DNA of 42,326 bases, from the IMG/VR virus record IMGVR_UViG_3300046535_001133, positions 1-42,326 of that record, one strand, 5' to 3'. This document shows, piece by piece, positions 313 to 33,114 of this stretch (position 1 is the stretch's first letter; each line of letters starts with the position of its first letter). The notes under the pieces were generated by a model. The model saw nothing but the letters and a program-made list of their open reading frames with translations, ran no database searches and was not told where the DNA came from. The translations under genes and the position numbers were made by a program. Origin of the DNA: a virus.

Positions 313-321
313 AAAAGAACG

Positions 322-351: not shown

Positions 352-358
352 ACACATA

Positions 359-439
359 ATGAATCACACAGATTGCGAGTGGGGAATTAACCTCCCGCAA
401 AGGTGGGAGCCGCAATTCGCTCCCGGAGAAGACAGATGA
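359..439 (+). CDS. Possible 26-residue leader peptide
   Basis: An ATG at 359 opens a 26-codon frame ending in TGA at 437-439, which overlaps the ATG of the next gene (436) as ATGA. It begins MNHTDCEWG and contains two further Trp/Arg-rich turns. If the promoter at 322-351 is used, the ATG lies at or within a few bases of the transcript start, so it would be nearly leaderless. Translation of this frame would pass through the alternative hairpins at 392-424. It may be a regulatory leader or simply chance; there is no SD. Confidence 0.3.
   Translation: MNHTDCEWGINLPQRWEPQFAPGEDR
392..428 (+). promoter_or_regulatory. Mutually exclusive hairpins next to an SD (putative attenuator)
   Basis: CTCCC (392-396) can pair with GGGAG (405-409) across an 8-base loop. 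Alternatively GGGAGC (405-410) can pair with GCTCCC (419-424), again across 8 bases. The two stems share 405-409 and cannot coexist. The second stem ends directly against the GGAG SD (425-428) of the gene starting at 436. This arrangement is typical of translational attenuators. No known riboswitch class was recognised. Confidence 0.4.
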
Positions 440-801: not shown

Positions 802-811
802 TCGACCAACA

Positions 812-857
812 GGCCGGGGACACGATCACTCGATCAAAGGTCCCCGGCCTCTTTTTG
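812..857 (+). terminator. Rho-independent terminator
   Basis: GGCCGGGGA (812-820) pairs perfectly with TCCCCGGCC (841-849) across a 20-base loop and is followed by a T-rich tail (850-856). It lies between the 436-801 gene and queC, so queC must be reached by read-through or by a promoter not recognised here. Confidence 0.85.
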
Positions 858-902
858 TCCTCTATGGTGAACGTTGCAGGACTCTACAAGGAGCACCGAA
901 CA

Positions 903-1598
903 ATGAAAGCAATCGTCCTCGTCTCTGGTGGGCTCGACAGCTGCACGGCGTTGGCATGGGCTCACGCCCGATTCGGCCAACAGATTCTCCCGATCAGCTT
1001 CGCCTACGGCCAACGACACAGCAGAGAGATCGCTGCGGCAGAAAGAATCTGTGAGTTCTACGGACTCCATATCCCCCGCTACATCAACCTCTCCCAGGCC
1101 TTCGTTCAAATTGGTGGGTCTTCTCTCACCTCTGGAATCCGATCCGACAATCCGTCCACTGAATCCGTCGACCGCACTGAGGACGCGTCTCTTCCCCCGA
1201 CCTTCGTCCCTGGTCGCAACCTCATCATGCTCTCGGTCGCTGCGGCAATCGGGTATGTGGAAAAAGCCTACACCATCGTCGGTGGGTGGAATGCAGTCGA
1301 CTACTCCGGCTATCCGGACTGTCGACCCGAATTCCTCAAGTCACTTCAACACACCTGCAACCTGGCTTTGGGTCTCCCAATCCAAGCCAAGTCCTACGAA
1401 GTCATCCAGATCGAAGCCCCGCTCGTCGACATGTCCAAAGCCGACATCGTGGCACTGGCACTTCACCTCTCGGCTCCGCTCCACCTCACTTGGTCGTGCT
1501 ACGCCGGAGGGACTGAGCCCTGTGGAGAGTGCGACAGTTGCAAAATCAGGGCAGGCGGCTTCGCTGCACATGGGATTCCGGACCCCGCTCTCACGTAA
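903..1598 (+). CDS. queC: 7-cyano-7-deazaguanine (preQ0) synthase QueC
   Basis: QueC uses ATP and ammonia to convert 7-carboxy-7-deazaguanine to the nitrile preQ0, the last step of preQ0 synthesis. The 231-residue protein from ATG 903 has the PP-loop ATPase motif SGGLDS at 8-13. It also has the C-terminal zinc-binding cysteines C199, C207, C210 and C213 (CGECDSC). Length and layout fit normal bacterial QueC. ATG 903 follows AAGGAG at 888-893, so the 16 extra upstream codons are unlikely to be used. It stands about 6 kb from queD, queE and folE, alone between a terminator and the strong promoter at 1622-1650. In phages this enzyme supplies preQ0 for DNA guanine modification. The identification is firm; the DNA role is inferred from the rest of the pathway and the DpdA-like gene at 12269. 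Confidence 0.95.
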   Translation: MKAIVLVSGGLDSCTALAWAHARFGQQILPISFAYGQRHSREIAAAERICEFYGLHIPRYINLSQAFVQIGGSSLTSGIRSDNPSTESVDRTEDASLPPTFVPGRNLIMLSVAAAIGYVEKAYTIVGGWNAVDYSGYPDCRPEFLKSLQHTCNLALGLPIQAKSYEVIQIEAPLVDMSKADIVALALHLSAPLHLTWSCYAGGTEPCGECDSCKIRAGGFAAHGIPDPALT

Positions 1599-1621
1599 CG
1601 TGATTCCCCAGACCCACGGGG

Positions 1622-1650
1622 TTGAAATTACTTTCATCCTGTGGTATAAT
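1622..1650 (+). promoter_or_regulatory. Strong sigma70 promoter
   Basis: TTGAAA (1622-1627) and a perfect TATAAT (1645-1650) are separated by 17 bases. This is a near-consensus host RNA-polymerase promoter. Transcription should start near 1657, just ahead of the SD AAAGGAGG (1663-1670) of the gene at 1677. It is the best early promoter in the window and probably drives the genes from 1677 to at least the terminator at 6943-6982. Confidence 0.88.
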
Positions 1651-1676
1651 GGAAATATACTGAAAGGAGGCCAATC

Positions 1677-1847
1677 ATGGCCGGACAGACAGAGAGCAGT
1701 GTGACCCTCATCAAGGACTCCGACAAGAAGCACTCGGTCCTCTTCAAGGCAACGGAGAAGGACAAGGCATTGGATTCCCTCTACCTCAAGCGCCCCTTCG
1801 CTGATGGGCTGACAGAAATCACCGTCACCGTGAAGGGAGTCAAGTAA
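1677..1847 (+). CDS. 56-residue unknown protein, first gene after promoter
   Basis: The frame starts at ATG 1677, six bases after the very strong SD AAAGGAGG. It ends at TAA 1845-1847, which overlaps the next ATG as TAATG. The product is a small charged protein beginning MAGQTESSV, with a predicted beta hairpin at the end (TEITVTVKGVK). No family is recognised. Its position directly behind a near-consensus promoter with an ideal SD predicts one of the most strongly made early proteins. It could be a small host-takeover protein, but nothing in the sequence proves that. Confidence 0.75.
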   Translation: MAGQTESSVTLIKDSDKKHSVLFKATEKDKALDSLYLKRPFADGLTEITVTVKGVK

Positions 1848-2191
1848 TGCTCGTCGACACTCGTCGCGTAGCCGATCGCCTCAAGCTCACCACTTCTGGT
1901 GTGCGTAACCTCGTGAAACGGGGACTCCTCCACGACGTTGGCCCACAGAATCCCAACGCCAAGAAACACTTCATGAAGTTCGACTCCAAGGAGATCACGG
2001 CGTTCGCCAAGGTCTACAAACCCCGGCACCACATGTCTCCGGAGGACCTCAAGCAGGAGACGCTCTCCTGGAACGTAGTCCCGATCGAGCTCCAGCCGGA
2101 ACCCCCGCTCCAGCATGGCAACGGTAGCGTCTCTTCCCGCCTCGTCCGGTTGGAAGAGAAGCTCGACCAAATCCTTTACATCCTCTCGTAG
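1847..2191 (+). CDS. Helix-turn-helix DNA-binding protein
   Basis: The 114-residue product starts with a MerR/excisionase-like helix-turn-helix: DTRRVADRLKLTTSGVRNL at about 4-22, followed by VKRGLLHDV, where the wing and specificity residues usually lie. A middle region rich in Lys, His and Pro leads to a C-terminal helix (SRLVRLEEKLDQILYIL) that resembles a short coiled-coil dimerisation segment. The start overlaps the stop of the 1677 gene (TAATG), so translation is coupled. It is probably an early transcriptional regulator. Its binding site cannot be assigned, although the promoter 200 bases upstream is an obvious candidate. Confidence 0.7.
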   Translation: MLVDTRRVADRLKLTTSGVRNLVKRGLLHDVGPQNPNAKKHFMKFDSKEITAFAKVYKPRHHMSPEDLKQETLSWNVVPIELQPEPPLQHGNGSVSSRLVRLEEKLDQILYILS

Positions 2192-2199
2192 GAGGTCAC

Positions 2200-2340
2200 A
2201 TGGGACAAATCGGCAAAGAGCTTCGTGAGGTCTACGTGGAGCCCCTGGAGAACCCGGTTCCAAAAGAAGTCCCGGTCCCGGTTCCAACCCCCCAGGAACT
2301 TCCGGTGCCACAAGAAGAGCCTGTAAAGGTTCCTGCATGA
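2200..2340 (+). CDS. 46-residue Pro/Val/Glu-repeat protein
   Basis: ATG 2200 lies just after GGAGG (2191-2195), which itself overlaps the stop of the previous gene. After a short helical start (MGQIGKELREVYVEPLE), the protein is a Pro-Val/Pro-Glu low-complexity tail with repeated EVPVP and ELPVP units. The stop TGA 2338-2340 overlaps the next ATG (2337) as ATGA. Small proteins of this style are common in phage early regions, but their role is unknown. The overlap with both neighbours argues that it is really translated. Confidence 0.65.
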   Translation: MGQIGKELREVYVEPLENPVPKEVPVPVPTPQELPVPQEEPVKVPA

Positions 2341-2825
2341 AAATCCCCGACTACTTCAACCCCATCATTTCATGGCGGGGCTGGCGTGTCGGTCCGGACG
2401 GAGGGCTCTATGGTCCCGCAAGGACCGGAGCCCTCTGGATTCCGGGAGAACCCTGCCGTGCACTCTGCGATGGGATCGGCAACAAATACCACACCAACCA
2501 CAAACACCCGACATGGACCGCTCCCCAACTGAACTGCACTTGTGGGTTCTACTCCTACAAGACGCTTCACCAGGAGCTGCTCCACCTCGTCAGCTCGCAG
2601 AACGACACAACCTACTACTCCCAAGCATCACTCGGCCAGGTTAAGATTTGGGGGCGTGTGATCGAACATGCAGACGGTTGGCGTTCTCAGTACGCGTACC
2701 CGCACGCCATCATCGTCGGTAGGGACCAAGTCAGCAAGGAACAAGTCTCAATCATCAAGGCGGAATACAAAATCGAGGTGGAAGAGGTAGCTTCAATCGC
2801 CTCCTTCCTCTCATCCATCATCTAG
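2337..2825 (+). CDS. Conserved unknown protein with CxC and WGRVIEH motif
   Basis: This 162-residue soluble protein starts ISWRGWRVGPDGGLYGPA and has C43 and C47 (EPCRALCDG), then a His-rich stretch and CTCGFYSYKTL at about 67-77. The most distinctive segment is IWGRVIEHADGWRSQYAYP at about 104-122. From memory, a similar combination (a CGIYA-like box followed by WGRVIEH and AEYAYP) recurs in small uncharacterised proteins of actinobacteria and phages. Conserved Cys and His may bind a metal. The enzymatic or binding role is unknown. The start is coupled by ATGA to the previous gene. Confidence 0.65.
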   Translation: MKIPDYFNPIISWRGWRVGPDGGLYGPARTGALWIPGEPCRALCDGIGNKYHTNHKHPTWTAPQLNCTCGFYSYKTLHQELLHLVSSQNDTTYYSQASLGQVKIWGRVIEHADGWRSQYAYPHAIIVGRDQVSKEQVSIIKAEYKIEVEEVASIASFLSSII

Positions 2826-2835
2826 GAGAACACCA

Positions 2836-3102
2836 ATGGCAGGACGCCCGGATCTACAGTTTCAAATCAAGAACCCCTTCAAGACCCCTGGATCCCAGAA
2901 GACGTGGTGGGCACCCGTCGGAGACATTAGCCTGTGGAAGAACGAGCAAGGTGTGTGGAGCGGAAGCTGCCGCATCTTCGCCTTTGGGACGGAGTTCAAG
3001 GTCTTCGAGAAGGAGCCCTACCCAGGTCCTAAGCAGCAGGCTCTGGGCACAACACGCGTGGATGCGACCCGCGGGGATGAATCCATCGATCCTCCGTTTT
3101 AG
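2836..3102 (+). CDS. 88-residue unknown protein
   Basis: ATG 2836 follows AGGAGAACACC. The product is hydrophilic and beta-rich, with several aromatic residues in the middle (TWWAPVGDISLWKNEQGVWSG) and a Pro/Asp-rich end (DESIDPPF). The central part looks like a small beta sheet. The shape resembles small phage proteins that bind nucleic acid or host factors, but I recognise no family. It lies ten bases after the previous gene in the same transcription unit. Confidence 0.6.
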   Translation: MAGRPDLQFQIKNPFKTPGSQKTWWAPVGDISLWKNEQGVWSGSCRIFAFGTEFKVFEKEPYPGPKQQALGTTRVDATRGDESIDPPF

Positions 3103-3110
3103 GCTGGCCG

Positions 3111-3938
3111 GTGAACAGAATGCAAATCTGCTGGTGGGAACACGGAGAGTTGTTGGAACACTTACGAAGCCGGCCGGATCTATGGTTGGATGATGGGCAG
3201 ATGTGGGTCAGGAAGACCTCTACGGGTACTCCTGCGTTCGCTCTGCAGCTTCTTCCACCTGAGACGGACGGTCCGTACAGGATGTATACCCTCCACACCA
3301 CACCCGTCGAGTGGGAAGAAGCATACGTCCTTGACTACCTGGACAAGCTCCTATGGTATTGGACCTCGTATTCCTCCCGACTGGAGTTTGAAGCCCTGAT
3401 GATCTCCGAGCTCAACGAACCGCCTGAGATCGCCCGGCTAATGGCCATCGCGCTGATGCGTGCAACGGTCGAACCGAAGATCGATCCGGAGAAGGCGCCG
3501 CCTGATCCCAAGCAAGAACCTCTCTGGCACTGGGACCTTCCATGGCCTCCACAAACTGGCGTTCCCACGTCTGGGGTTGTAGGACACATGAGTCTCCCCA
3601 CTCCGGGCGGCTCGATCACCATCACCCAGCACGGCGAGCTCCTCCGCGTCCGATTCGAAATCGCCACACGACGGACCGCCAACGGCTGGCACAGCATCGC
3701 CATGCAGGGCTTCTGTCGACCCTTGGGTTACTCGGTCAGCAAATTCCTGGAAATGATGCAAATCCGAAGCCAAGAACCTTTGCAGACAGATGACCCTGAC
3801 TCCCAACTCAACTTCGAGGAGATCCTACATGCCAGTGCTGGAGAAGATGATGCTGATCTTCCTGGGGATACTAGCGGGGATGTTGTTCCTCCATGTGATC
3901 CAGGTCCTACGACAACCACAGAAGGAGGACAAAATTGA
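3111..3938 (+). CDS. Unknown protein with suspicious C-terminal tail
   Basis: The frame can start at GTG 3111 or ATG 3120; neither has a strong SD. The first 235 or so residues look genuinely coding: a Trp-rich N-terminus (ICWWEHGELLEH), a helical middle (LDYLDKLLWYWTSY) and a beta-rich part. The last 35 residues (Asp, Gly, Pro and Thr-rich, ending TTTTEGGQN) do not look like protein. They coincide exactly with a membrane microprotein encoded in the +1 frame at 3829-3957. Either the tail is tolerated overlap or the reading is affected by a small error here. No known domain was recognised. Confidence 0.55.
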   Translation: MNRMQICWWEHGELLEHLRSRPDLWLDDGQMWVRKTSTGTPAFALQLLPPETDGPYRMYTLHTTPVEWEEAYVLDYLDKLLWYWTSYSSRLEFEALMISELNEPPEIARLMAIALMRATVEPKIDPEKAPPDPKQEPLWHWDLPWPPQTGVPTSGVVGHMSLPTPGGSITITQHGELLRVRFEIATRRTANGWHSIAMQGFCRPLGYSVSKFLEMMQIRSQEPLQTDDPDSQLNFEEILHASAGEDDADLPGDTSGDVVPPCDPGPTTTTEGGQN

Positions 3939-3957
3939 TCGACGTTCAGATTGGTGA
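3829..3957 (+). CDS. Overlapping 42-residue single-pass membrane microprotein
   Basis: ATG 3829 sits seven bases after a perfect GAGGAG (3816-3821). It opens a 42-codon frame in the +1 register relative to the 3111 gene, ending at TGA 3955-3957. The product has a short N-terminus (MPVLEKM), one hydrophobic helix at about 8-27 (LIFLGILAGMLFLHVIQVL) and a basic, soluble tail containing Arg, Lys and Gln. This fits a single-pass membrane peptide. It overlaps the end of the 3111 gene and the first 23 bases of the nuclease gene at 3935. Its role is unknown; membrane-acting host-takeover or superinfection-exclusion peptides are possibilities only. Confidence 0.6.
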   Translation: MPVLEKMMLIFLGILAGMLFLHVIQVLRQPQKEDKIDRRSDW

Positions 3958-4870
3958 TGATCTCCGGATCCGAATCACCGAAGGCGAATTCACCCTCCGA
4001 CAATCCTCGGAGAAATCCTTCCAACTGTGTAAGAGGTATTATGGGTGGGAACGAATCGAAAACCTGGCTCCTGTCGCGATCCAATGGAATCTCATCTTTG
4101 GCACAGCAACTCACCTCTTCCTTCAAGAGCGCGGACGGGGCGTCGACATTCCCAAAGCGCTGGCTGCCGCCGAAAAGAGTCTTTCAGATGCAGTCAAGGG
4201 CAAGCTGGTGGGAGATGACGTAGGCCTGTACGAAGAACACCTCTTCATGCTTCGCAACATCGCCCCGGTCTACGACGCGTATTGGGGCGCGGATGATGCA
4301 CACGCGTTCATCCCACTCGGCCAAGAAATCAAAGGTCGGATCCCGGTCGGTGACCCACGCCACAAGGTCTTCTTGGTGTTCAAGACCGACAAGATCGTCA
4401 ACTACCTCGGTCAGCTCTGGCTCATCGACCACAAGACCATGCGGAAGAACGACGACCGGGAGTTCGCCAAGTACGAGATGGACATCCAACCCACAGCCTA
4501 CATCTACGGAGTCTCCAAAGTTCTGGGAATCCGCGTTGCAGGCATCATCATCGACGGGATCATCAAAACGAAGGTCCCCCAGTTCAGGCGAGAATCGTTC
4601 CTCCGGTCTGACGCCGAGCTGAAGGAGTTTGAGGAGGAATTCGTGGAGATGTGCCAAGAGATTGGTTGGCGGATGAAGAGGGTCCAAAACGGCGAGAACT
4701 GGAAAACCGTCTTCTACAAAAACACCGGTTCCTGCTTCCACTGGGGCAAAGCCTGTGCCATGTTGAAGCTCTGTAGCCGGGACACACCCGTCATGCGGAT
4801 GTACTACGAGAAGCGGGAACCCGACTACATGGACAACCCAAGCCTCCTGAACCAAGAGGAACCCAAATGA
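3935..4870 (+). CDS. PD-(D/E)XK nuclease of the RecB/Cas4 type with Fe-S cysteines
   Basis: The start is TTG 3935, six bases after GGAGG (3924-3928); no ATG fits. The 311-residue protein has the PD-(D/E)XK core: GTATH at 56-60, acidic E131, D152 (FKTDK) and IDHKT at 164-168, with D165 and K167 as the catalytic pair. A Q-x-x-x-Y motif follows (QPTAYIYG, 185-192). Four cysteines, C32 near the N-terminus and C267, C274 and C280 near the C-terminus, match the iron-sulfur staple of RecB/AddB and Cas4-type nucleases. It is expected to be a DNA exonuclease or end-processing enzyme. It probably works with the Sak4-like ATPase (5609) and SSB-like protein (6440) in phage recombination. Confidence 0.85.
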   Translation: MIDVQIGDDLRIRITEGEFTLRQSSEKSFQLCKRYYGWERIENLAPVAIQWNLIFGTATHLFLQERGRGVDIPKALAAAEKSLSDAVKGKLVGDDVGLYEEHLFMLRNIAPVYDAYWGADDAHAFIPLGQEIKGRIPVGDPRHKVFLVFKTDKIVNYLGQLWLIDHKTMRKNDDREFAKYEMDIQPTAYIYGVSKVLGIRVAGIIIDGIIKTKVPQFRRESFLRSDAELKEFEEEFVEMCQEIGWRMKRVQNGENWKTVFYKNTGSCFHWGKACAMLKLCSRDTPVMRMYYEKREPDYMDNPSLLNQEEPK

Positions 4871-5181
4871 ACCTTGTTGGTGCCAAGAATTTCCAAGTCC
4901 TGTCCGGTAAAATTCTGCTGGCCCCAGACCCGGACCTCGCCTGGTCGAAGGGCGGCATTTTCTTCCCGGACTCCATGAAGAAGAAGGCCGAATCCGGCCT
5001 ATGCGTCCAACACCAACCGTTGATTCTCGAGGAGGACCTAACCGGCAGACGGCTCCTCGTCGAAAAGTGGTTGTGGACCGAAATCGAACTTGAAGGTCAG
5101 CCGTTCCTCATTCTCGACGAACGGTCGGTCTTCGCAGTGCTTGAAACGGGGGACTTAACCCCCTCTCAGGAAGGAGCCTAG
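4867..5181 (+). CDS. GroES-like co-chaperonin
   Basis: The 104-residue product follows the GroES/Cpn10 plan. KILLAPDPDLAWSKGG at 15-30 leads into a GGIFFPDS segment (29-36), the place of the GroES mobile loop (GGIVLPDSA in typical GroES). A TEIELEG strand (71-77) and FLILDERSVFAVLE (80-93) match the C-terminal LIL-x-E-x-D-I-L-A-V-L-E of GroES. The middle is diverged. The start overlaps the nuclease stop as ATGA. Phage co-chaperonins such as T4 gp31 partner host GroEL to fold capsid protein. This one is much closer in length and motif to GroES. Whether it binds GroEL is inference. Confidence 0.7.
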   Translation: MNLVGAKNFQVLSGKILLAPDPDLAWSKGGIFFPDSMKKKAESGLCVQHQPLILEEDLTGRRLLVEKWLWTEIELEGQPFLILDERSVFAVLETGDLTPSQEGA

Positions 5182-5182
5182 A

Positions 5183-5383
5183 ATGGCGACACGCGACGAA
5201 GTGAAGTCGGAACTCATGAGCAGGATCGACAACGTGTTCCCGGAGGACCGCGAACTGGATCAGGAAGGGGATGTTCCGATCCTGGCCCAGGCGATCAGCT
5301 CGACCGATGAGGACGTGGACCAGCTCATCGCCGACATCGAAGAAGCCGAAACAGGCGAAGAGAATCCCGAAGCCGAAGGGTGA
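5183..5383 (+). CDS. 66-residue acidic unknown protein
   Basis: ATG 5183 follows AAGGAG in the end of the previous gene. The product is very acidic, with an N-terminal helix (ATRDEVKSELMSRIDNVF) and a second helix (DEDVDQLIADIEEAE). It ends in a Glu-rich tail. Small acidic proteins of this kind can act as DNA mimics or bind basic partners, but no family is recognised. The stop overlaps a possible GTG start of the next gene. Confidence 0.65.
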   Translation: MATRDEVKSELMSRIDNVFPEDRELDQEGDVPILAQAISSTDEDVDQLIADIEEAETGEENPEAEG

Positions 5384-5391
5384 TCCTGTTC

Positions 5392-5640
5392 ATGCCCTGT
5401 GAACTCGAACTGAAATCCGGTGGGCGAGTGTGGGGTTTGATCAGGGCTGAGGTTTCGCCGGAGGGTGAGGTGTTGAACATCGACATCAAACCCACCGGCA
5501 AACCAACTTGGAGCCCCTTCTGTCAGGCAACAGTGATCGATGTTCCCAACGTCGGACCGCAACTTGCGTTCAGGATGTTTGGAGCAGCTGCACAGAAAGG
5601 AGAAATCGATGCCAGTGGGAACGTCACTCGGACCGCGTAA
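5392..5640 (+). CDS. Small unknown beta-rich protein
   Basis: I prefer ATG 5392 (82 residues). GTG 5380 is possible because it overlaps the previous stop, and the GAAGGGTG stretch lies ahead of either. The product starts MPCELELKSGGRVWGLI and continues with alternating hydrophobic and charged residues typical of beta strands (PEGEVLNIDIKP). No known motif is visible. Its 3' end carries the AAAGGAG SD of the Sak4-like gene, so the two are closely coupled and overlap by 32 bases. Confidence 0.6.
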   Translation: MPCELELKSGGRVWGLIRAEVSPEGEVLNIDIKPTGKPTWSPFCQATVIDVPNVGPQLAFRMFGAAAQKGEIDASGNVTRTA

Positions 5641-6433
5641 GCTTCCTGAAGTCAAGTCCACGAAGGACTACATGCGGGGAGGTTACGCAACAATCCTCCT
5701 GTACGCCATTGCGCGGTTCGGAAAGACAAACCTTCTGCGCGGACTCCTCAAAAACGGGTTCCGACCCTTGGTTCTGTCTGTTGGAGAGATGGGGGACAGC
5801 CGCGGTTTAACCACTGTGGCTGACCTCGACATCCCAGTTGTAGAAGTGGATGATTGGGATACTGCCAAACTCGTCTGCGCGGAGTTGAAGAAGGGCAAAT
5901 ATCAAGACCACACCTTCGACGTGCTCTTCAACGACTCCCTCACTGGGTTTGGAAGCGTCTGGACCGACAAGGGCTTACAGGTCCTCGGATGGGATGAAAT
6001 CGGCGTACCGGTCGGGGGAAAAGACACCCGACAAATCTACGCATACATCCCAGAGAAGGGGCGTCAAACCATGAAGATGCTCTTTGACATCCCAGCTCAC
6101 CTCGTGTGTCTCTGTCGAGAAGGTCTCGTGGAAGAAGGGCAAGGTCTGGCAAAAATCACCTACCCTGCTCCTGAACTCCCTGGCCAGAAACTCAACAGAG
6201 AGCTTCCCGGTTGGCCTGACGCAACGGTCTACGGGAAGTTTATGAACGGAGAGCGAATCTTCCTGACTGAGCCGGAAGGGAAGACAATCGCGGGAATTCG
6301 AATGCCTGAGGGCATGAGGTTCCCAAAGCGCATGAAGGCAGATCTGTCACTCCTGATTCGGGGGATGAAGGGTGACATGGACGCGATCAAGGCAAGTGAA
6401 TTGCCCGCGCCAACAACACCCCCAAAGAGGTAG
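5609..6433 (+). CDS. Sak4-like RecA-fold ATPase (AAA_24 type)
   Basis: ATG 5609 follows AAAGGAG with good spacing. The 69-base longer frame is not needed. The 274-residue protein has a Walker A-like segment IARFGKTNLL (34-43) in which the first glycine of GxxxxGK[ST] is replaced. A Walker B strand DVLFNDSL follows at 103-110. Order, size and neighbours fit Sak4, a RecA-like single-strand annealing ATPase of phages. Its usual partner is an SSB-like protein, here the very next gene. It probably anneals or pairs single-stranded DNA during replication-linked recombination. The altered Walker A deserves attention because it may reduce ATP binding. Confidence 0.75.
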   Translation: MPVGTSLGPRKLPEVKSTKDYMRGGYATILLYAIARFGKTNLLRGLLKNGFRPLVLSVGEMGDSRGLTTVADLDIPVVEVDDWDTAKLVCAELKKGKYQDHTFDVLFNDSLTGFGSVWTDKGLQVLGWDEIGVPVGGKDTRQIYAYIPEKGRQTMKMLFDIPAHLVCLCREGLVEEGQGLAKITYPAPELPGQKLNRELPGWPDATVYGKFMNGERIFLTEPEGKTIAGIRMPEGMRFPKRMKADLSLLIRGMKGDMDAIKASELPAPTTPPKR

Positions 6434-6439
6434 AAGCAC

Positions 6440-6928
6440 ATGACCGAAAACACAACGACTGCAGCCGCCGGATACGACCTCGACGAACTCCTGGGGACCA
6501 AAGTCGGGGACATGACCAAGTCGGAGCCTCTGCCGGAGGGTGTGTACCACGTTCGCATCGGCAAGGCGGTCGTGACTCACCCCAAGCAGTCGACGAAGAA
6601 GGACAAGTCCGGGCAGGATGTCCAGACCTATCCCTACGTCAACTGGGACCTGGTCGTCACGGGCGACTCTCCCGAGGAGTTCCACGGGCGGCACACCTTC
6701 GACATGGGCTCGCTGAAGCCAGGAGCCACATTCACCAACCGGCAGTACCTCGAGGCGCTGGGGTACGGAGAAGACGTGACGCTCGGCGAAGCCCTGCCCG
6801 AGATCAACGCCGGCAACTCCGAGCTGTTGGTGGGCCTCGTGGTCGAGCCCGAGGGCATCAGCCCGGCAGACAACAAGTGGTACCCGGCGCGTAACAAGAT
6901 CACGCGTCGTCTCAAGCTCGGATCCTAG
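6440..6928 (+). CDS. SSB-like protein, partner of the Sak4-like ATPase
   Basis: ATG 6440 lies six bases after the previous stop. The 162-residue protein is a single beta-rich domain: EGVYHVRIGKAVVTHPKQS at about 34-52, then YPYVNWDLVVTGDSPEEFHG. A helical region (NRQYLEALGYGEDVT) and a C-terminal YPARNKITRRLKLGS follow. This matches phage single-stranded-DNA-binding proteins (DUF669/DUF2815-like) that stand next to Sak4 genes. It lacks the acidic tail of bacterial SSB. The gene is followed directly by a terminator, so it probably ends the early transcript. Confidence 0.65.
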   Translation: MTENTTTAAAGYDLDELLGTKVGDMTKSEPLPEGVYHVRIGKAVVTHPKQSTKKDKSGQDVQTYPYVNWDLVVTGDSPEEFHGRHTFDMGSLKPGATFTNRQYLEALGYGEDVTLGEALPEINAGNSELLVGLVVEPEGISPADNKWYPARNKITRRLKLGS

Positions 6929-6942
6929 GTGAACATACGAAA

Positions 6943-6982
6943 GGTGTGGTGCTCTATGAGGGGGCGCCACACCCTCTTTCTT
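6943..6982 (+). terminator. Rho-independent terminator
   Basis: GGTGTGGTG (6943-6951) pairs with CGCCACACC (6965-6973), nine pairs with one G-T wobble, across a 13-base loop. A T-rich tail CTCTTTCTT follows. It lies just after the SSB-like gene and just before the SD of the 6996 gene. The queD-polymerase operon must therefore depend on read-through, antitermination or an unrecognised promoter. Confidence 0.65.
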
Positions 6983-6995
6983 GGAGGGCTAAGTG

Positions 6996-7601
6996 ATGCA
7001 CGTTACCCAAATGGGGGACAGGATACTGGTAGAAGAGCTCGAACGCCGCGGCTATCAGATCATTCCAGTGACAAGGGGCTCTTCACCTACTGTCCCAACT
7101 GTGGATACACCAGCCCCGGCTTCCACCACACTGGATATGCACGTCTTCGACAGTGGCGCAAAACGCTCCATGCTGAAGCCCCGCTACGATCTCGTTCCCG
7201 TGTTACCCCTCAAACGGCTTGCAGACCGGTACGCTCTTGGAGCGAAGGTGTACGGCGAATGGAACTGGCAGATGGGGCTGCCTGCTGGGGATACGTTGAA
7301 TCACATCATCGACCACTTGCTACGATGGAGCGATAATCTCAGGCACGGCAGAGCCTCAACCGACGATGACCTTGCAGCTGCAGCGTGGGGCTGCTTCACA
7401 CTCATGGCACTGGAGCCCACATATGACGCTTCACAAATGGATCGAGGCCCACGGGTTCAAGGGGGAATTGGTGCTGACCACAGTCGATCCCTGGATGCAC
7501 TCGGTGGCATCGGAAAACGAAGGCCTCCTGAACCAGTTCATGACGAACGCAGTGGATCACTTAGTGACGGATCTGGCAGTCCTAAAGGAGATGGCCGATG
7601 A
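6996..7601 (+). CDS. dATP/dGTP diphosphohydrolase-like protein (N-terminal domain type)
   Basis: ATG 6996 lies seven bases after GGAGGG (6983-6988); a GTG directly before it is less likely. Residues 51-140 or so match the phage dATP/dGTP diphosphohydrolase N-terminal family (PF18909-like). The matching segments are DSGAKRSMLKPRYDLVPV, then a YALGAKVYGEWNW segment, LNHIIDHLLRW and STDDDLAAAAWGCFTLMALE. Related MazZ-type enzymes cut (d)GTP to (d)GMP and pyrophosphate. The last 60 residues are low-complexity and coincide with a +1-frame gene at 7423-7620, so they may not be functional. The stop overlaps the queD ATG as ATGA. Its place at the head of the deazaguanine operon suggests nucleotide-pool control. 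Confidence 0.7.
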   Translation: MHVTQMGDRILVEELERRGYQIIPVTRGSSPTVPTVDTPAPASTTLDMHVFDSGAKRSMLKPRYDLVPVLPLKRLADRYALGAKVYGEWNWQMGLPAGDTLNHIIDHLLRWSDNLRHGRASTDDDLAAAAWGCFTLMALEPTYDASQMDRGPRVQGGIGADHSRSLDALGGIGKRRPPEPVHDERSGSLSDGSGSPKGDGR

Positions 7602-7620
7602 ACGTCGGAACAGAGGTTGA
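7423..7620 (+). CDS. 65-residue protein overlapping two genes in +1 frame
   Basis: ATG 7423 follows GGAG (7412-7415) with seven-base spacing. The frame runs to TGA 7618-7620, over the last third of the 6996 gene and the first 23 bases of queD. The product, starting MTLHKWIEAHGFKGE, has a balanced composition and predicted helices (NEGLLNQFMTNAVDHLVTDLAV), unlike the Gly/Ser/Arg-rich tail of the frame it overlaps. It therefore looks like the truly coding frame for this stretch. Either it is a separate overlapping gene or the C-terminal part of the 6996 product reached by a +1 frameshift. No family is recognised. Confidence 0.55.
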   Translation: MTLHKWIEAHGFKGELVLTTVDPWMHSVASENEGLLNQFMTNAVDHLVTDLAVLKEMADERRNRG

Positions 7621-7990
7621 GATTTGCATTGGGCATAGGCTGATGGACTACCTCGGCAAATGCGCCAACCCACACGGGCACAACTACCGGATCTGCGTCC
7701 AGGCGACGGGCAACATGAAGAAGCGAGACTACGGGATTCTCCTGGACTTCTCCGACTTGAAGGATGCTCTCAACAAAGTCCTCGCCCCGTTCGACCATGC
7801 GATGATGCTACGGGATGACGATCCGTTGGTCCCATTCCTCGTGGCTGAAGGCTCGAAGGTCGTGAAGATGGAACACAATCCAACCGCCGAGAACTTCGCA
7901 GAATTCATCAAGACCCAGCTCACCATGCTGCTTCCCATGGAGTGGAAGGTCCGGGTCTACGAAACCACGAAATCCTACGCAGAGGTGTAA
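7598..7990 (+). CDS. queD: 6-carboxytetrahydropterin synthase QueD
   Basis: QueD converts dihydroneopterin triphosphate (from FolE) to 6-carboxy-5,6,7,8-tetrahydropterin, step two of preQ0 synthesis. The 130-residue protein is of normal size for the PTPS/QueD fold. It shows the zinc ligands H13, H26 and H28 (HGH), catalytic C22 and the D66-H67 pair (FDHAMML). The NPTAENFAEFI helix and a C-terminal ET motif (VRVYETTKSY) are also present. AAAGGAG at 7584-7590 gives ideal spacing to ATG 7598, which overlaps the previous stop. The presence of catalytic Cys, QueE and QueC favours QueD over a biopterin-type PTPS. Confidence 0.93.
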   Translation: MNVGTEVEICIGHRLMDYLGKCANPHGHNYRICVQATGNMKKRDYGILLDFSDLKDALNKVLAPFDHAMMLRDDDPLVPFLVAEGSKVVKMEHNPTAENFAEFIKTQLTMLLPMEWKVRVYETTKSYAEV

Positions 7991-7992
7991 CA

Positions 7993-8379
7993 ATGTCTGA
8001 TGTCCAGTATCTCAACGAAGCTGACGCAATGGCCCTAGCCAACTCCCTGGGCTGCACTGCTGTCATGCCCTCCCCCTACCAGCTCCAGCTCGATCTCGAC
8101 CTCGAGAAGTTCCCCTGGGCCCTCGACCAGTACACCAAGATGCTGCCGACCGTCCAGAGCTGGCTGACGATCAAAGAGACTGATCGGTGGACCAGCAAGA
8201 GCGGAAGAGGCACCCACATCGTGCTGACTGCAGCCGAACCAATCGACTGGCACACGCGTCTCACTCTCCAAGTAATTCTGGGCAGTGACCCTGTCCGAGA
8301 GTTCCTGGCCCTCCGCACGATGCACGATCACGCCAAGGGCCTGTCCTACCTCTTCCGTCCACTGGAGCAGACAGTATGA
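7993..8379 (+). CDS. Unknown phage protein, possible primase-fold fragment
   Basis: ATG 7993 begins a 128-residue protein two bases after queD. It shows an acidic LQLDLDLEKF segment (about 33-42) and a SKSGRGTHIVLT segment (about 69-80). A RLTLQVILGSDPVREFLALRT segment and LSYLFRP near the end complete it. This order (acidic pair, SKSG-x-H-I box, LGSDP box, LFRP end) recurs in small phage proteins and loosely resembles the core of archaeo-eukaryotic primases. That relationship is a guess. It sits between queD and queE and overlaps queE by ATGA, so it is made with the pathway enzymes, but no step of the pathway is missing for it. Confidence 0.6.
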   Translation: MSDVQYLNEADAMALANSLGCTAVMPSPYQLQLDLDLEKFPWALDQYTKMLPTVQSWLTIKETDRWTSKSGRGTHIVLTAAEPIDWHTRLTLQVILGSDPVREFLALRTMHDHAKGLSYLFRPLEQTV

Positions 8380-9014
8380 ACTACCCAGTGGCAGAACGCT
8401 TCAAAGCCTTGCAAGGCGAAGGCGTCTACACAGGCGTCCCGATGGCCTTCATTCGCATGGTCGGGTGTAGCGTCGGCAAGAAGATCTGCACCTCCTGTGA
8501 CACAGACTTCGACACGATATACCCACATCTCGACGGAGGAACTTACAACCCGAAACAACTGCTTGAGTGGGTCGGGAACTACCGTCACCTCTGCGTTACT
8601 GGTGGTGAACCCATGATGCGAGACCTCATGCCATTGTGGGATGCGGCTGCAATGACTCCTGATCTCGTCTTCCACGTCGAGACCTCAGGCACGCAGGAAA
8701 ACGACCTCTTCGACTTTTCCGACTCTCCATTCCTCTGGATCTGTGTTTCACCCAAGCCCGGGTTCAAGGAAGAACTTGTCGCAAAGGCCGACGAAGTCAA
8801 AGTCATCTACGGCGGGCTCGGCAACGGTCCAGGCTGGCCAGGAATCGCAGATGCAATGAGATGGGCAGCGATGGGCAAAATCGTCTACCTCCAGCCCAGG
8901 AACAACCGAATAACACTGGACCAGAAGAACACCATGGAAGTGGTTGAGCTGGTGAAGAAGTTCCCCATGCTCCGCGCCTCGATCCAACTCCACAAAGTCC
9001 TGGGTGAAAGATGA
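8376..9014 (+). CDS. queE: 7-carboxy-7-deazaguanine synthase QueE (radical SAM)
   Basis: QueE rearranges 6-carboxytetrahydropterin to 7-carboxy-7-deazaguanine using S-adenosylmethionine and a 4Fe-4S cluster. The 212-residue protein starts with FKALQGEGVYTGVPMAFIR, a QueE hallmark. Cluster cysteines C31, C38 and C41 follow, then TGGEP at 75-79 for SAM binding. The end, SIQLHKVLG, matches the QueE C-terminus. The cluster loop is C-x6-C-x2-C rather than the usual radical SAM C-x3-C-x2-C or the long C-x14-C-x2-C loop known in some QueE. The start overlaps the previous stop as ATGA, and the end overlaps the next gene by four bases. Confidence 0.93.
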   Translation: MNYPVAERFKALQGEGVYTGVPMAFIRMVGCSVGKKICTSCDTDFDTIYPHLDGGTYNPKQLLEWVGNYRHLCVTGGEPMMRDLMPLWDAAAMTPDLVFHVETSGTQENDLFDFSDSPFLWICVSPKPGFKEELVAKADEVKVIYGGLGNGPGWPGIADAMRWAAMGKIVYLQPRNNRITLDQKNTMEVVELVKKFPMLRASIQLHKVLGER

Positions 9015-9316
9015 ACCGGCCAGTTCACGACATTCTCTACGCATTGGACCAGGGGAAGGCTCCTGGTCCATGTGCGTTCATCCAACACGGAACGGAAGAA
9101 GCCGGTTTCGAATACGAGTGCGTCTGCCCGTGGTGCGCACAGTCAGTTGGAGACCGGATCCCTTCTCCCACCCAGTTCACCTTCGGTGCGCTCCTAACCG
9201 AGCTGAAGAAGAAGATGAAAGACCACGTTCGAGTATGCACAGCAGACATGCGGAAGATGCGTGTATACGTCACCAAAACTCCGCTCGGGACGGATAGTGC
9301 CCCGAAGGTGCAATGA
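9011..9316 (+). CDS. Small putative zinc-binding protein in the preQ0 operon
   Basis: The 101-residue product contains C37-x-C39-x2-C42 (ECVCPWCAQSVG) and later H73-x3-C77 (DHVRVC), which together could form a C2HC zinc site. A Lys-rich helix (LLTELKKKMKDHVRV) lies between them. The first residues (MNRPVHDILYALDQGKAPGP) resemble no known motif. It overlaps queE by ATGA at its start and folE by four bases at its end, so it is locked between two pathway enzymes. It could help deliver the modification to DNA or be unrelated; the sequence does not decide. Confidence 0.6.
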   Translation: MNRPVHDILYALDQGKAPGPCAFIQHGTEEAGFEYECVCPWCAQSVGDRIPSPTQFTFGALLTELKKKMKDHVRVCTADMRKMRVYVTKTPLGTDSAPKVQ

Positions 9317-9855
9317 TGGACAAGAAGAAAATGGAAGCGGGAGTCAGACTTCTTCTCACAGGAATGGGAGTAGACCTTGCTGATCGTAACTACCGAGATA
9401 CGCCGGCTCGCGTTGCGAAAATGTACGTGGAACTGTTTTCTCCACGCAAGAATAACTTCGCCACATTCCCTGAAAAACACGATAGCATGGTTATCCTCCG
9501 TGGACATACAGTGCACGGTGTCTGCCCGCATCATCTCGTTCCAGTTGAAATGCGGGTGTACGTCTGTTACATTCCAGACAAAGAGATCCTTGGTCTCTCC
9601 AAGCTTGCACGAGTCGCTGAGCAGCCTCTTACCGGACCTGTCCTTCAAGAAACTTACACTGACACCGTCGCGGATATTCTCTATGCCCGAACAGGTGCAA
9701 AGGGAGTTGGTGTTGTTGTTGCAGGAAGGCATGGCTGTATGCGTCATCGTGGCATCAAATCTGAAGGAGATATTGTCACCTCTGCCATGAGAGGGCAGCT
9801 TCTCCTCAACTCTTCAGCTCGAGAGGAATTCCTTCGGTTGATCGGACGGGTTTGA
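9313..9855 (+). CDS. folE: GTP cyclohydrolase I
   Basis: FolE hydrolyses GTP to dihydroneopterin triphosphate, the first step of preQ0 (and folate) synthesis. The 180-residue protein has RDTPARVA at 28-35, and the zinc/active-site segment VCPHHLVPVEMRVYVCYIP with C71, H73 and H74. LGLSKLARVAEQPLTGPVLQ follows, then HGCMRHRGI with H140 and C142. These are all diagnostic of type I cyclohydrolase. The length is near the usual bacterial size without a regulatory N-terminus. ATG 9313 overlaps the previous stop; ATG 9316 is an alternative. Its place beside queD and queE and the absence of other folate genes point to preQ0 rather than folate. Confidence 0.95.
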   Translation: MMDKKKMEAGVRLLLTGMGVDLADRNYRDTPARVAKMYVELFSPRKNNFATFPEKHDSMVILRGHTVHGVCPHHLVPVEMRVYVCYIPDKEILGLSKLARVAEQPLTGPVLQETYTDTVADILYARTGAKGVGVVVAGRHGCMRHRGIKSEGDIVTSAMRGQLLLNSSAREEFLRLIGRV

Positions 9856-12272
9856 TGTCCGAAACCTACCCCGAAGACAACGGGAAACCCATCGAATGCA
9901 GGCTCTGTCCGCTTTACAACGCCCCAGGTATCGTTCCTGGAGAAGGCCCGAAAAATGCTAAGATCTTTCTCCTGGGAGAGGCCCCGGGTGAAACTGAAAT
10001 TCTCATCAACCGACCTTTTGTGGGCGGCGCTGGCCGCATACTTAATCGGTTGCTTGCTACTGTCAAGATTCAGCGATCCCAGACCTACATAACCAACGTC
10101 GTCAAGTGCAGACCGACGGTGATCAACCATGAAGGAAAACTCAAAGACCGGCCCCCGACGCCGACCGAGATCGAATGCTGCGCAAGGTTCCTTGTGGACG
10201 AACTTGAATCTGTCAAACCCAACGTCATCGTCGGACTTGGGGGAACAGCTCTCTTCGCTCTTAAAGACACCAACAAAATTGGACAACACCGAGGCGTCCC
10301 ATTCCCCACGTCGTTCGGCAAAGCGCTCTGTACGTATCACCCAGCCGGGCTCATGCGGCAACAGCAGCTCTTCCCACTCGCGATCCGAGACTTGGCTCTC
10401 GCGCTTAAGGAAGCAGAAAGCCCGGACCTCGTACGTCTTGAAGTCACATATAACCCTAACGCAAGCGCAGCGGGTAATGGCGTTGCTCTGCGACAGCGCG
10501 CTCGAGCTGCGGGATACGTCACCCTCGACTTGGAAACAACGGGACTCGACCCTCGCTACGATCAGATTCTCTGTTGCGGAGCTGGGACAGAACCACAAAA
10601 GGCTGAGTGTTACGCTTGGAACAGTGATAACGAGCGGCTCCTCCGAACTCTGTACGAGGATCCAACACTTGAAAAAGTCGGACAGAATTGCGAAGGTTTC
10701 GACTGGTGGTTCCTCCACGGCAAAGGCTGGCCGGAGGCTCCAGCCGGCAAGTCCTATGACACACTCCTCGCGTTTCATCTAACGAACTCCGACCTGCCGA
10801 AGGACCTTGGAACCTTGGGTGCGACGTTCACAGACATGGAGTATTGGAAGCATGAAGGGAAGAAAGCCTTCAAAGACGCGGAGCGAAGTGGAAACCTCTT
10901 CCTCTACAACTGCAAGGACATCGATGGAACAACACGATCGTACCTCTCCACAAAGAAACTCCTCCAGCAGTACGGGATGCTTGGGTTGTACTACAACAAC
11001 GTCATGCCCCTTCAACCGATTCTTCGACGAATGTCCAAAAGGGGAATCAAGAAGGATGTAGAGAAGGCCGCGAAGTGGTCTTTGGCGTTCAACATGGTGG
11101 CGGACCAGAAAGAACAGGTGCTCAGGGATGGACTCAACGCCCAAGACTTCTCCGTCAACTCCCCCAAACAGCTCATGCGACTCTTCTACGAGCAGCTTGG
11201 GCTTCCGATACAATACGTTCGTGACAAGGACAGAGGGAGCCGTCCAACCGTTAACGATGACGCAATGGAAGCGTTGGCCATCATTACCAACGACCCCATC
11301 TTTCACCTGGTTAATGAAATCAGGCAGTGCCGAAAATTTGCGTCTACTTACTGTGACGCTATCACTGATGAGGACGGTTATCTCCATCCGCGCTTTGGGT
11401 GTGCGAAGGCAGCGAACGGCCGACTCAACAGCTGGGACCCAAACGGACAGAACTGGCCCAACGACCTCCGAGAACTAGTCATCCCGGACAGTCCCGATCA
11501 CATCTTCCTAGCCTGTGACTGGAGTCAGATCGAGTGGAGGAACTCCATGATCCTCACTGCAGACCCAGCTGGGTTGGAGATGATGAAAGCAGGAGTAGAT
11601 AACCACTCCGTAACAGCTGCAGAGTGTTTCACAATCGACATCGGCCTGGTGAATGAAGAAGTTCCAGGCATCAATATGGCCTACCGACAAGCAGCAAAGT
11701 TCATCGTCTACGGACTAGGCTACGGTCGTGGGATCCGATCAATCGCAATGCAGCTGGGAAAGGATGAAGCATGGGTAGCGGCATTCGTGCAGAGGTACTT
11801 CGCGAAGTTTCACGTTTTCGCCGACGGCAGGAATCAATGGGAACAGTTCGTCCGGCACAACAACTATCTGAGAAATCCGTTCAGCCGGCGCCGGTGGTGG
11901 TACAGCATGCAGGTACCGGAGCTGTACAACTTCCTGCCCTCTTCGACCGCAGCGGACATGATGTATCTGGTCATTCCGAAAGTGGAATCCCAACTGCCCT
12001 CTGGAGCAACGCTTCGTCTGACCGTGCACGACGAGCTCGTTATTTGTTGTACTCGGGACGCGCAGACCGTCAAACAATCCGCGATGTGCTTGCAGGAAAA
12101 TATGAGTCGTATGTGGCCCGAGATCGTGGAAGCGTCCAACGACTCAGCAAAAATCAAACGGTACTACCCCCAAGGCTGGCACTGTCCTACAGACCTGTCG
12201 ATTGGTAACACCTGGAAGGACTGCAAGGATAAGAAGATCCAATACGAACTGAAGAAGGAGTACAACCTGTGA
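9855..12272 (+). CDS. Fusion of family 4-like uracil-DNA glycosylase, 3'-5' exonuclease and family A DNA polymerase
   Basis: This 805-residue replicase starts at ATG 9855, overlapping the folE stop. Residues about 14-185 form a family 4-like uracil-DNA glycosylase. It has cluster cysteines C15, C18, C85 and C108/C109, the GEAPGE motif (41-46), RPFVGGAGR and the HPAG motif (162-165). Residues about 220-370 form a DEDD exonuclease with D225 and E227 (LDLETTG), D283 and a YxxxD-like site. The polymerase has motif A (ACDWSQIEW, D555), motif B (RQAAKFIVYGLGYG, with K615 and Y619) and motif C (VHDE, 725-727). Tyr619 stands where E. coli Pol I has Phe762, as in T7 polymerase. Glycosylase-polymerase fusions are known in phage SPO1 and others. 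Both neighbours are coupled to it. Confidence 0.92.
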   Translation: MSETYPEDNGKPIECRLCPLYNAPGIVPGEGPKNAKIFLLGEAPGETEILINRPFVGGAGRILNRLLATVKIQRSQTYITNVVKCRPTVINHEGKLKDRPPTPTEIECCARFLVDELESVKPNVIVGLGGTALFALKDTNKIGQHRGVPFPTSFGKALCTYHPAGLMRQQQLFPLAIRDLALALKEAESPDLVRLEVTYNPNASAAGNGVALRQRARAAGYVTLDLETTGLDPRYDQILCCGAGTEPQKAECYAWNSDNERLLRTLYEDPTLEKVGQNCEGFDWWFLHGKGWPEAPAGKSYDTLLAFHLTNSDLPKDLGTLGATFTDMEYWKHEGKKAFKDAERSGNLFLYNCKDIDGTTRSYLSTKKLLQQYGMLGLYYNNVMPLQPILRRMSKRGIKKDVEKAAKWSLAFNMVADQKEQVLRDGLNAQDFSVNSPKQLMRLFYEQLGLPIQYVRDKDRGSRPTVNDDAMEALAIITNDPIFHLVNEIRQCRKFASTYCDAITDEDGYLHPRFGCAKAANGRLNSWDPNGQNWPNDLRELVIPDSPDHIFLACDWSQIEWRNSMILTADPAGLEMMKAGVDNHSVTAAECFTIDIGLVNEEVPGINMAYRQAAKFIVYGLGYGRGIRSIAMQLGKDEAWVAAFVQRYFAKFHVFADGRNQWEQFVRHNNYLRNPFSRRRWWYSMQVPELYNFLPSSTAADMMYLVIPKVESQLPSGATLRLTVHDELVICCTRDAQTVKQSAMCLQENMSRMWPEIVEASNDSAKIKRYYPQGWHCPTDLSIGNTWKDCKDKKIQYELKKEYNL

Positions 12273-13012
12273 AGCTCTCTGCAGAGATCCCAACGAAACA
12301 TCTGGAAGAGCTCAGCCCCTTGATGGACGCTGACTTCTCCCTTGCCCACCTGATTCTGGAGGACAAAATCTACGCCGAGTTCTACCTTCAACAGGCCAAG
12401 GCCGGCCGCATGGTGATCATGGATAACTCCATGCACGAACTCCCGGCAAGCCTCTCCGTTGGAGAGATTCTCGAGGCAGCTGACAGGACGAAGCCTTCGT
12501 TCGTCATTCCTCCTGACAAGCTCGGAGACGTGAAATTCACCTACGACCAATTCGAGATCCTCCGGAAACAAAACCTTCGGCACGGACATCGGCTCGCTGC
12601 AGTCCTCTGCGGATCAAACAGTGCTGAGCGTAGCATGTTCTTCACGAACGTCCGCGCTTACATCGACATGATCTGCTTCCCATACCGCGAGCCCCGTCTC
12701 ACCTGGTTCGATGAACTGTTGACCGCCATCCCAAAGCACGCAGGATGGCCGCCATACATCCACCTGCTCGGTGTGAACACGCTTGACGAACTCTCCGTCT
12801 GGAACTCCAAGCTCGACCTCGTCGGCTGGCCCCGGAACGGTCGAAGCGTCGACACAAACAAAATGGTCAAGTGGGGTCTGAAGAACAAACGACTGAACGC
12901 CCTGGACAGTCTCCGCGGGGCTGGCCCGTTGGACTTCAAAACCGAGATGGACCTCTCCCAGCGTCTCGACACCATCTACAACACAGCGTACATCCGGAAG
13001 TTTCTCGTTTAG
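12269..13012 (+). CDS. dpdA: DpdA-like TGT-fold DNA guanine transglycosylase (candidate)
   Basis: DpdA enzymes swap guanine in DNA for preQ0 or a relative. This 247-residue protein has the plan I associate with short phage DpdA proteins, which lack the zinc site of tRNA transglycosylases. VIMDNSMHELP (49-59) carries the likely substrate or nucleophile Asp52. PPDKLGD (81-87) has paired Asp residues, YIHLLGVNTLDEL (163-175) matches the beta strand with HLLG, and RSVDTN (192-197) has a late Asp. GTG 12269 lies after AAGGAG and overlaps the polymerase stop as GTGA. The full preQ0 pathway upstream strongly supports the call. Sequence similarity is from memory, so a different TIM-barrel enzyme is possible. 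Confidence 0.65.
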   Translation: MKLSAEIPTKHLEELSPLMDADFSLAHLILEDKIYAEFYLQQAKAGRMVIMDNSMHELPASLSVGEILEAADRTKPSFVIPPDKLGDVKFTYDQFEILRKQNLRHGHRLAAVLCGSNSAERSMFFTNVRAYIDMICFPYREPRLTWFDELLTAIPKHAGWPPYIHLLGVNTLDELSVWNSKLDLVGWPRNGRSVDTNKMVKWGLKNKRLNALDSLRGAGPLDFKTEMDLSQRLDTIYNTAYIRKFLV

Positions 13013-13024
13013 CGGGGTCATGGC

Positions 13025-14431
13025 GTGGCGGAGGACAAAAAGAAGATCGCACCCCTACAGCTAGGTCAGCAGATCAACCTGCTGATGTCTCAGCTCCAAG
13101 GGATTAGTGGGGATCGAACCCACGCATCGTACCAGCTGATTATTGACTACGTGAAGGCGATTCCGCCGGTCTCTCGGCCATCAGAACTTCACGCGTCCTT
13201 ACAGCGGGCGTTCAAACTAACGGCCAAAGAGGTCGATGCCGCGTTGGAGCATCGGAACCTGAATCTTCCCAAGGACTTCGAAACCTTCGTTCCAGAGAAC
13301 GGATGGCTCCATGACTACATCGAATACACGAGAAATACCGAGCCCCCCACTGTCTTCCACTTCTTTACTGGACTGGTCGCCATGGGGAGTGCACTGGCAC
13401 GTAATGTTAGTTTTAATCTCGGGTTCGGTCACATTTTCCCTAACATGTGCGTTATCCTGGTGGCTCCATCTGGCAAATGTCGAAAAACTTCTTGCTGTGA
13501 GCTTGGGGTTAAACTTTATCGGGCCGTTGGTGGCACTATCCTGGCTGATAAAATTACGCCAGAAGCTTTGGTCAATGCGTTCGAGGAGAAAGCAAGCGCC
13601 ACCGGCCTGATCTACGCAGGAGAACTAGCCCAGTTTCTCGGTAAACAAAAATACATGGAGGGGATGATCCCGCTGCTCACGCGGCTGTTTGATTGTCCGG
13701 ATGTATGGACAAGTGCGACGATAACGCGGAAGGAACTAACCCTGAAGAACGTTGCGTTCTCCATGCTGGGTGCATCTACCATGGACTGGCTCCGCACTGG
13801 CATCCCTGCCGACAGCTTTGGAGGCGGCTTTATGTCGAGATTCCTCTTCGTGGTGCAAGAGGAGACTCCCCGCAGCTTTCCAAGACCACCAGCTCTGCCC
13901 GATGCTTTGCGCAGCAAGCTCTTGAAGCGGCTTTTAGAGTTCTCGCACCTCAGGGGGAACTTCCAGATGACGCCCGCCGCAGGAAAATGGTACGACGAAT
14001 GGTACAATGGACAGTCCCTGAGAGGGATCGAGGAACGTCAGTTCAGTGGTTACTACGAACGGAAGCCCGCACACTTGATCCGCCTCAGCATGTTGCTGAC
14101 TCTATCCCAGCAATCCGACGCGCTGGTGATCGAGAAGACAACTCTTGAACGGGCACGAGACATCCTGGATTGGTTGGAGCTGATGCTCCCAGGCGCCTTC
14201 GAACAACTGTCCCAAACCACGATCGGAGAAGACCACGGGAGAATTCTTCGCCTGCTGAAGAAGAACAACGGCGAGATGCTACACTCGGACTTACTTCGAC
14301 GGGTCTCCGGCCGAATGAACGCACGGCAATTCAAAGACCTCATCGCAACACTCCGTGAAGCAAAACTCATCGACTTCGACACGAACAAACGCGTCTACTT
14401 CCTAACCGGAGAAGGATGGCAACATGGGTAG
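13025..14431 (+). CDS. DUF3987-like primase/helicase-associated ATPase
   Basis: The 468-residue protein uses GTG 13025 (no ATG in frame nearby; weak SD). From about 95 it follows the DUF3987 pattern. Segments in order are WLHDYIEYTRNTEPPTVFHF, an F-x-x-LVAMGSALARNV helix and HIFPNMCVILVAPSGKCRKTS, with a degenerate P-loop. DKITPEALVNAF and FCMLGASTMDWL-like strands follow, then GGGFMSRFLFVVQE. C-terminal helices (GRILRLLKKNNGEMLHSDLLRRV) look like a winged helix. DUF3987 proteins occur in phage replication modules as primase/helicase-like factors. It lies 12 bases after the DpdA-like gene and overlaps the next gene. No other helicase was found, so it may be the phage's replicative helicase or primase. 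Confidence 0.75.
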   Translation: MAEDKKKIAPLQLGQQINLLMSQLQGISGDRTHASYQLIIDYVKAIPPVSRPSELHASLQRAFKLTAKEVDAALEHRNLNLPKDFETFVPENGWLHDYIEYTRNTEPPTVFHFFTGLVAMGSALARNVSFNLGFGHIFPNMCVILVAPSGKCRKTSCCELGVKLYRAVGGTILADKITPEALVNAFEEKASATGLIYAGELAQFLGKQKYMEGMIPLLTRLFDCPDVWTSATITRKELTLKNVAFSMLGASTMDWLRTGIPADSFGGGFMSRFLFVVQEETPRSFPRPPALPDALRSKLLKRLLEFSHLRGNFQMTPAAGKWYDEWYNGQSLRGIEERQFSGYYERKPAHLIRLSMLLTLSQQSDALVIEKTTLERARDILDWLELMLPGAFEQLSQTTIGEDHGRILRLLKKNNGEMLHSDLLRRVSGRMNARQFKDLIATLREAKLIDFDTNKRVYFLTGEGWQHG

Positions 14432-33113: not shown

Positions 33114-33114
33114 T

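Follow-up and report, generated by a model that had tools for sequence, protein, structure and literature searches.

Phages that carry a DpdA have 7-deazaguanine DNA (PMC6884629). The deoxynucleoside of 7-cyano-7-deazaguanine (preQ0), dPreQ0, is present in CAjan and Rosebush (PMC6884629), and in Campylobacter phages CP220 and CPt10 dADG (7-amido-7-deazaguanine) reportedly takes the place of 100% of the deoxyguanosine (dG) (PMC8306585). Here, we describe a gene cassette of an uncultivated phage, IMG/VR record IMGVR_UViG_3300046535_001133, whose 42,326 bases form the window analyzed below. The cassette combines the enzymes of preQ0 synthesis with a short DpdA-type DNA-guanine transglycosylase, and we consider it very likely that it inserts a 7-deazaguanine into the phage DNA.

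All four preQ0 enzymes are encoded on the + strand between positions 903 and 9855, the extent that an earlier sequence-only reading had correctly given for the gene set. They are QueC (7-cyano-7-deazaguanine synthase, 231 aa, 903..1598; PF06508, E = 5e-63; TIGR00364, 189 bits against a cut-off of 150), QueD (6-carboxytetrahydropterin synthase, 7598..7990; PF01242, E = 7.5e-27; TIGR03367, 79 bits against a cut-off of 89), the radical SAM enzyme QueE (7-carboxy-7-deazaguanine synthase, 8376..9014; phrog_2076, E = 1e-21) and FolE (GTP cyclohydrolase I, 9313..9855; PF01227, E = 1e-41). Family matches of this strength (E 1e-21 to 1e-63) do not arise by chance, and a residue check agrees with them, upholding the same reading's claim that the key residues are intact: C71/H73/H74/C142 in FolE; H13, C22, H26, H28, D66/H67 and E122 in QueD; and the SGGLDS PP-loop with zinc cysteines C199/C207/C210/C213 in QueC. 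The cluster cysteines of QueE (C31/C38/C41) form an atypical CX6CX2C motif, whereas the usual spacing is CX3CX2C; the three relatives introduced below have the identical spacing, so that all four group members share it. A further arrangement, CX3CX7C, occurs in QueE of Flavobacterium phage immuto and of many marine loci.

The insertion step, which the sequence-only reading had left unfilled, is supplied by a gene with a GTG start at 12269..13012 (+), encoding a 247-aa protein that tblastn, fold, profile and invariant residues identify as a short DpdA-type DNA-guanine transglycosylase. The protein had no match in Pfam, in NCBIfam or in a single-sequence phmmer search of PDB. Against annotated phages, tblastn recovered the annotated DNA guanine transglycosylase (DpdA) of immuto (4e-8) and proteins of CP220, CPt10 and their relatives (at 3e-6 or weaker); Weizmannia phage Youna2 and Bacillus phage BSP7 gave protein matches as well. 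Eight residues (D52, N53, E57, D83, H165, G168, D195 and N238) are invariant in a 55-sequence alignment, and D52, N53, D83, H165, G168 and D195 are also invariant in a more diverse set of 26 sequences, with counterparts readable in 9g DpdA and nt-1 DpdA2 as DSG, HGFG-like and CDSSS motifs. The AlphaFold2 model is a TIM barrel (pLDDT 90.7, pTM 0.88) whose best fold match among 350,542 PDB chains is 7ui4, the DNA preQ0 insertase DpdA (E = 7.8e-5, TM 0.55); the same entry is the best profile match among 177,635 PDB sequences (E = 0.025). In the viral fold library BFVD, the model matched phiST gp042, nt-1 DpdA2 (R9TGF0) and several phage queuine tRNA-ribosyltransferases. Each of these lines is modest; combined, they place the protein firmly in the superfamily of DpdA and tRNA-guanine transglycosylase (TGT). 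Identity as a TGT itself is not supported, as the protein lacks a PF01702 domain.

The sequence-only reading had seen no QueF, tRNA transglycosylase or amidotransferase, and with respect to these particular families it stands: neither QueF (PF14489) nor GATase_6 (PF13522) has a match in the window or its three relatives, ArcS and QueF-L having had no search of their own, and PF01702 has no match in the same four records while matching in 14/14 control genomes. What it had missed is the DpdA-type enzyme. Weak, sub-threshold QueF matches in two relatives were rejected because they fall on FolE, a member of the same T-fold superfamily. The absence of all three families from the relatives carries weight since the window is probably 5–7 kb short.

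The transglycosylase gene closes a single gene run from 6993 to 13012 (+), in which most junctions are stop/start overlaps of a few bases. The run opens with a dATP/dGTP diphosphohydrolase-like protein (6993..7601; PF18909, E = 4e-12), a domain kept in three relatives and possibly a partner acting on the dGTP pool; its gene overlaps queD by 4 bases. Between queD and queE lies a small protein of unknown function (7990..8379; weak phrog_12608, matches in 2/3 relatives), for which a later start was chosen within an ORF opening at 7942. Then follow queE, a 101-aa cysteine-containing protein of unknown function (9011..9316; 35–38% identity in three relatives, no Pfam match), folE, and a DNA polymerase with an N-terminal uracil-DNA-glycosylase (UDG) superfamily domain, an exonuclease and a family-A polymerase domain (9852..12272; PF03167, E = 1e-30; PF00476, E = 1e-44). 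Each gene from 7990..8379 onward overlaps the next, up to the polymerase gene and that of the transglycosylase. These overlaps suggest co-expression. queC is set apart, ~5.4 kb upstream of the run, and the DUF3987 primase/helicase-type protein that lies downstream of the transglycosylase gene (13025..14431, +; PF13148, E = 2e-15; phrog_14296, DNA primase) is a replication neighbor, no cassette enzyme.

We then compared the locus with relatives found in IMG/VR via the terminase (56–62% identity), three of which have records of 47–50 kb. All three keep queC, queD, queE, folE and the UDG–polymerase fusion, as well as the genes for the transglycosylase and the DUF3987 protein, indicating that phages of this group stably carry the cassette. 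Identities to the window are 34–62% for QueC and 41–46% for the transglycosylase. Scans of viral contigs with single window proteins (DpdA, FolE or polymerase) as queries found no relatives; an alignment query succeeded. Of 85 loci with the transglycosylase family (window included), 47 carry the full set of four preQ0 genes inside the fetched flanks and 58 carry three or more, with contig ends cutting many of the remaining loci. Within this family, one locus carries two short-DpdA genes in overlapping tandem (L027:6572-8231), and in another the gene is broken into two frames (L078:3210-4288). Homologs are annotated as hypothetical in CP220 (gp056, L003:5001-5777) and Vibrio D479 (L119:3971-4828), and bear unrelated names (NADR, integrase, polynucleotide kinase) in Bacillus phages BSTP5/8/10/12.

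Several observations weigh against this assignment of the cassette. QueD, QueE and FolE miss some curated NCBIfam equivalog cut-offs (the best match of QueE, TIGR04508, reaches 70 bits and stays under its cut-off), although their Pfam or PHROG matches are clear. The fold and profile scores of the transglycosylase to 7ui4 are modest (E about 8e-5 with TM 0.55, and E = 0.025), and the enzyme shares only ~25% identity with the CP220/immuto group, outside whose supported clade it falls. Finally, further modifying genes may have been lost from the window, as the contig is probably incomplete.

Even so, a role in DNA modification, which the sequence-only reading had proposed, is now better supported because an insertion enzyme sits in the same gene run; the accompanying prediction of dPreQ0 holds as the simplest product, with dADG a real alternative. 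FolE, QueD, QueE and QueC, assigned by homology and residues, would convert GTP to preQ0 through the known pathway steps. The 247-aa enzyme would then act on phage DNA, swapping guanine for a preQ0-type base via the covalent glycosyl-enzyme step that TGT and DpdA use; motif equivalence points to D195 as the nucleophile and to D52 and D83 as holding the base. Replacement could extend to many or all G sites, and, by analogy with published phages, the modified DNA would be shielded from host nucleases, conferring a presumed resistance to host restriction. Palindrome counts, read for restriction avoidance, showed only weak deviations, to which we give no weight. We favor dPreQ0 as the probable base because preQ0 is what QueC yields and we see no enzyme acting beyond it.

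The strongest competitor, less likely than dPreQ0, is that the same cassette produces dADG with near-complete replacement of G as in CP220, for example if QueC lets its amide intermediate go or if the nitrile is hydrated by the product of another gene. dADG and extensive replacement stay in contention since CP220 and CPt10, with their reported 100% dADG, carry a homolog of the window enzyme (PMC8306585). The CP220 protein and the window protein nevertheless belong to different clades, no dedicated amide-forming enzyme was identified, and the direct QueC product corresponds to dPreQ0, the base found in CAjan and Rosebush (PMC6884629).

A second competitor concerns where the swap takes place. 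The short transglycosylase might act on the nucleotide pool rather than on DNA, exchanging guanine in dGMP or dGTP for preQ0 (or ADG); the product would be phosphorylated and built in by the phage polymerase, the PF18909 protein would remove dGTP, and replacement would be complete. For the window enzyme we regard this as unlikely. Its appeal comes from gene neighborhoods. Genes resembling deoxynucleoside monophosphate (dNMP) kinases adjoin the short DpdA in CP220 (AAA_28), immuto (AAA_28), D479 (DNMK) and phiST (AAA_18), and in Youna2 and BSP7 it lies beside P-loop genes that are kinase-like by motif and sequence reading only. Kinase-type domains and pyrophosphohydrolases also recur in IMG/VR: a Pfam scan of 62 dereplicated downstream neighbors, in which one protein can match more than one family, gave AAA_28 (11), AAA_18 (4) and dNK (2), along with formyltransferases (12) and QueC (11), and pyrophosphohydrolases are recurrent upstream. 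Long DpdA1 genes lie instead near a sliding-clamp gene, without annotated kinases (9g, CAjan, RHEph06, MS1, VpKK5, ART and phiSM), although several of these phages are related and hence not independent cases. The family itself is a single small barrel of 247–290 aa. These neighborhoods hint, short of proof, at a nucleotide-level activity of short DpdAs. Neighboring genes are, however, phylogenetically correlated, kinase matches occur in just 27/85 loci, and we know of no TGT-fold enzyme that acts on nucleotides. The cassette of the window lineage has the PF18909 gene but no kinase, which counts against action on the pool without settling it, and Cui and colleagues reportedly argued in 2023 for an exchange made after replication. 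The same idea extended to short single-barrel DpdAs at large, as deoxyguanylate-pool enzymes whose 7-deazaguanine deoxynucleotide is incorporated wholesale by the phage polymerase, strikes us as equally improbable; if true, it would give Z-genome synthesis a TGT-fold counterpart, in which dNMP kinases and dGTP pyrophosphohydrolases take part.

Very unlikely is a purely tRNA-directed role, in which the preQ0 genes would raise queuosine in host tRNA without acting on phage DNA, as Hutinet et al. (PMC6884629) consider for phages that carry preQ0 genes and lack DpdA: here the phage encodes a DpdA-type enzyme, which the relatives and most other loci retain alongside the pathway, and shows no QueF, TGT or tRNA gene. 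Phages like that of the window are easily misread as boosters of tRNA precursors because Pfam, NCBIfam and single-sequence PDB searches miss the protein; Campylobacter phages were listed as lacking DpdA in that study (PMC6884629).

The cassette belongs to a rightward module of replication and metabolism genes (1-15,643), and a leftward module holds structural genes (terminase, portal, major capsid protein). Megablast against phages gave zero matches for the window, and scans of GTDB genomes for a host, with the transglycosylase and then the major capsid protein, found no relatives. The contig is probably ~5–7 kb below full length, the shortfall lying between terS and queC, since the relatives' 47–50 kb records have additional small genes of unknown function there. 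Elsewhere in the window, a stretch between capsid and tail genes (30721-34768, −) has no counterpart in the three relatives and contains a methyltransferase-like protein (33115-33753, −) and two putative glycosyltransferases judged by eye (32133-33113 and 33737-34768, −). The structural side also encodes a 1909-aa protein (15703-21432, −) without a PHROG match, to which the relatives are 27–30% identical. Two proteins of the structural region end in near-identical motifs, GTVVGTQT and GTVVGTQS (27947-29275 and 34778-35011, −), whose sequences suggest a shared attachment signal. A weak GroES co-chaperonin match (PF00166, E = 4e-4, slightly under the cut-off) lies at 4867-5181 (+).

How does this locus compare with known systems? 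The short DpdAs of CP220/CPt10 and immuto, which we take to be of the DpdA3 type, are among the closest, being homologous to the window enzyme over its full length and sharing its size class and motifs. Cui and colleagues reportedly named the DpdA3 subfamily in 2023 and are said to have found that it allows complete replacement and to have argued for post-replicative insertion. As in the window, immuto has preQ0 genes near its DpdA; in immuto, Youna2 and BSP7 the short-DpdA gene lies a few kb from queD, queE, folE and a family-A polymerase, and in the latter two queC is likewise close. Unlike the CP220/immuto type, the window cassette lacks a dNMP kinase, a QueF and a formyltransferase. The tree groups the window sequence with those of its three relatives in a separate clade, which lies apart from the supported 54-row clade containing CP220 and immuto and whose long branches leave its exact placement unsure. 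The short DpdA of the window is a new, deeply divergent branch, added from a little-sampled phage group, of a kind of system already known.

The CAjan-type system (Hutinet et al. 2019, PMC6884629) resembles the window in pairing FolE, QueD, QueE and QueC with a DpdA-type enzyme, in placing that gene next to the replicative polymerase and in lacking an amidotransferase. Its DpdA1, however, has ~306–317 aa, adjoins a sliding-clamp gene and has no detectable sequence similarity to the window enzyme, which has 247 aa and lies between the UDG-fused polymerase and the DUF3987 protein; membership in DpdA1 was rejected (hhalign probability 0.3% against 9g DpdA). DpdA2 of Vibrio phage nt-1 belongs to the same superfamily by fold and likewise has preQ0 genes alongside, but comprises 464 aa, and membership was rejected there as well (hhalign probability 1–8%, motifs unaligned). 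The bacterial preQ0 insertase 7ui4 has corresponding HLLG and S-D motifs, yet is 436 aa long and ~11% identical in the structural alignment. Across these systems, the contrast between kinases beside short DpdAs and sliding clamps beside long DpdA1s makes the site of the swap, finished DNA or nucleotide pool, a testable matter.

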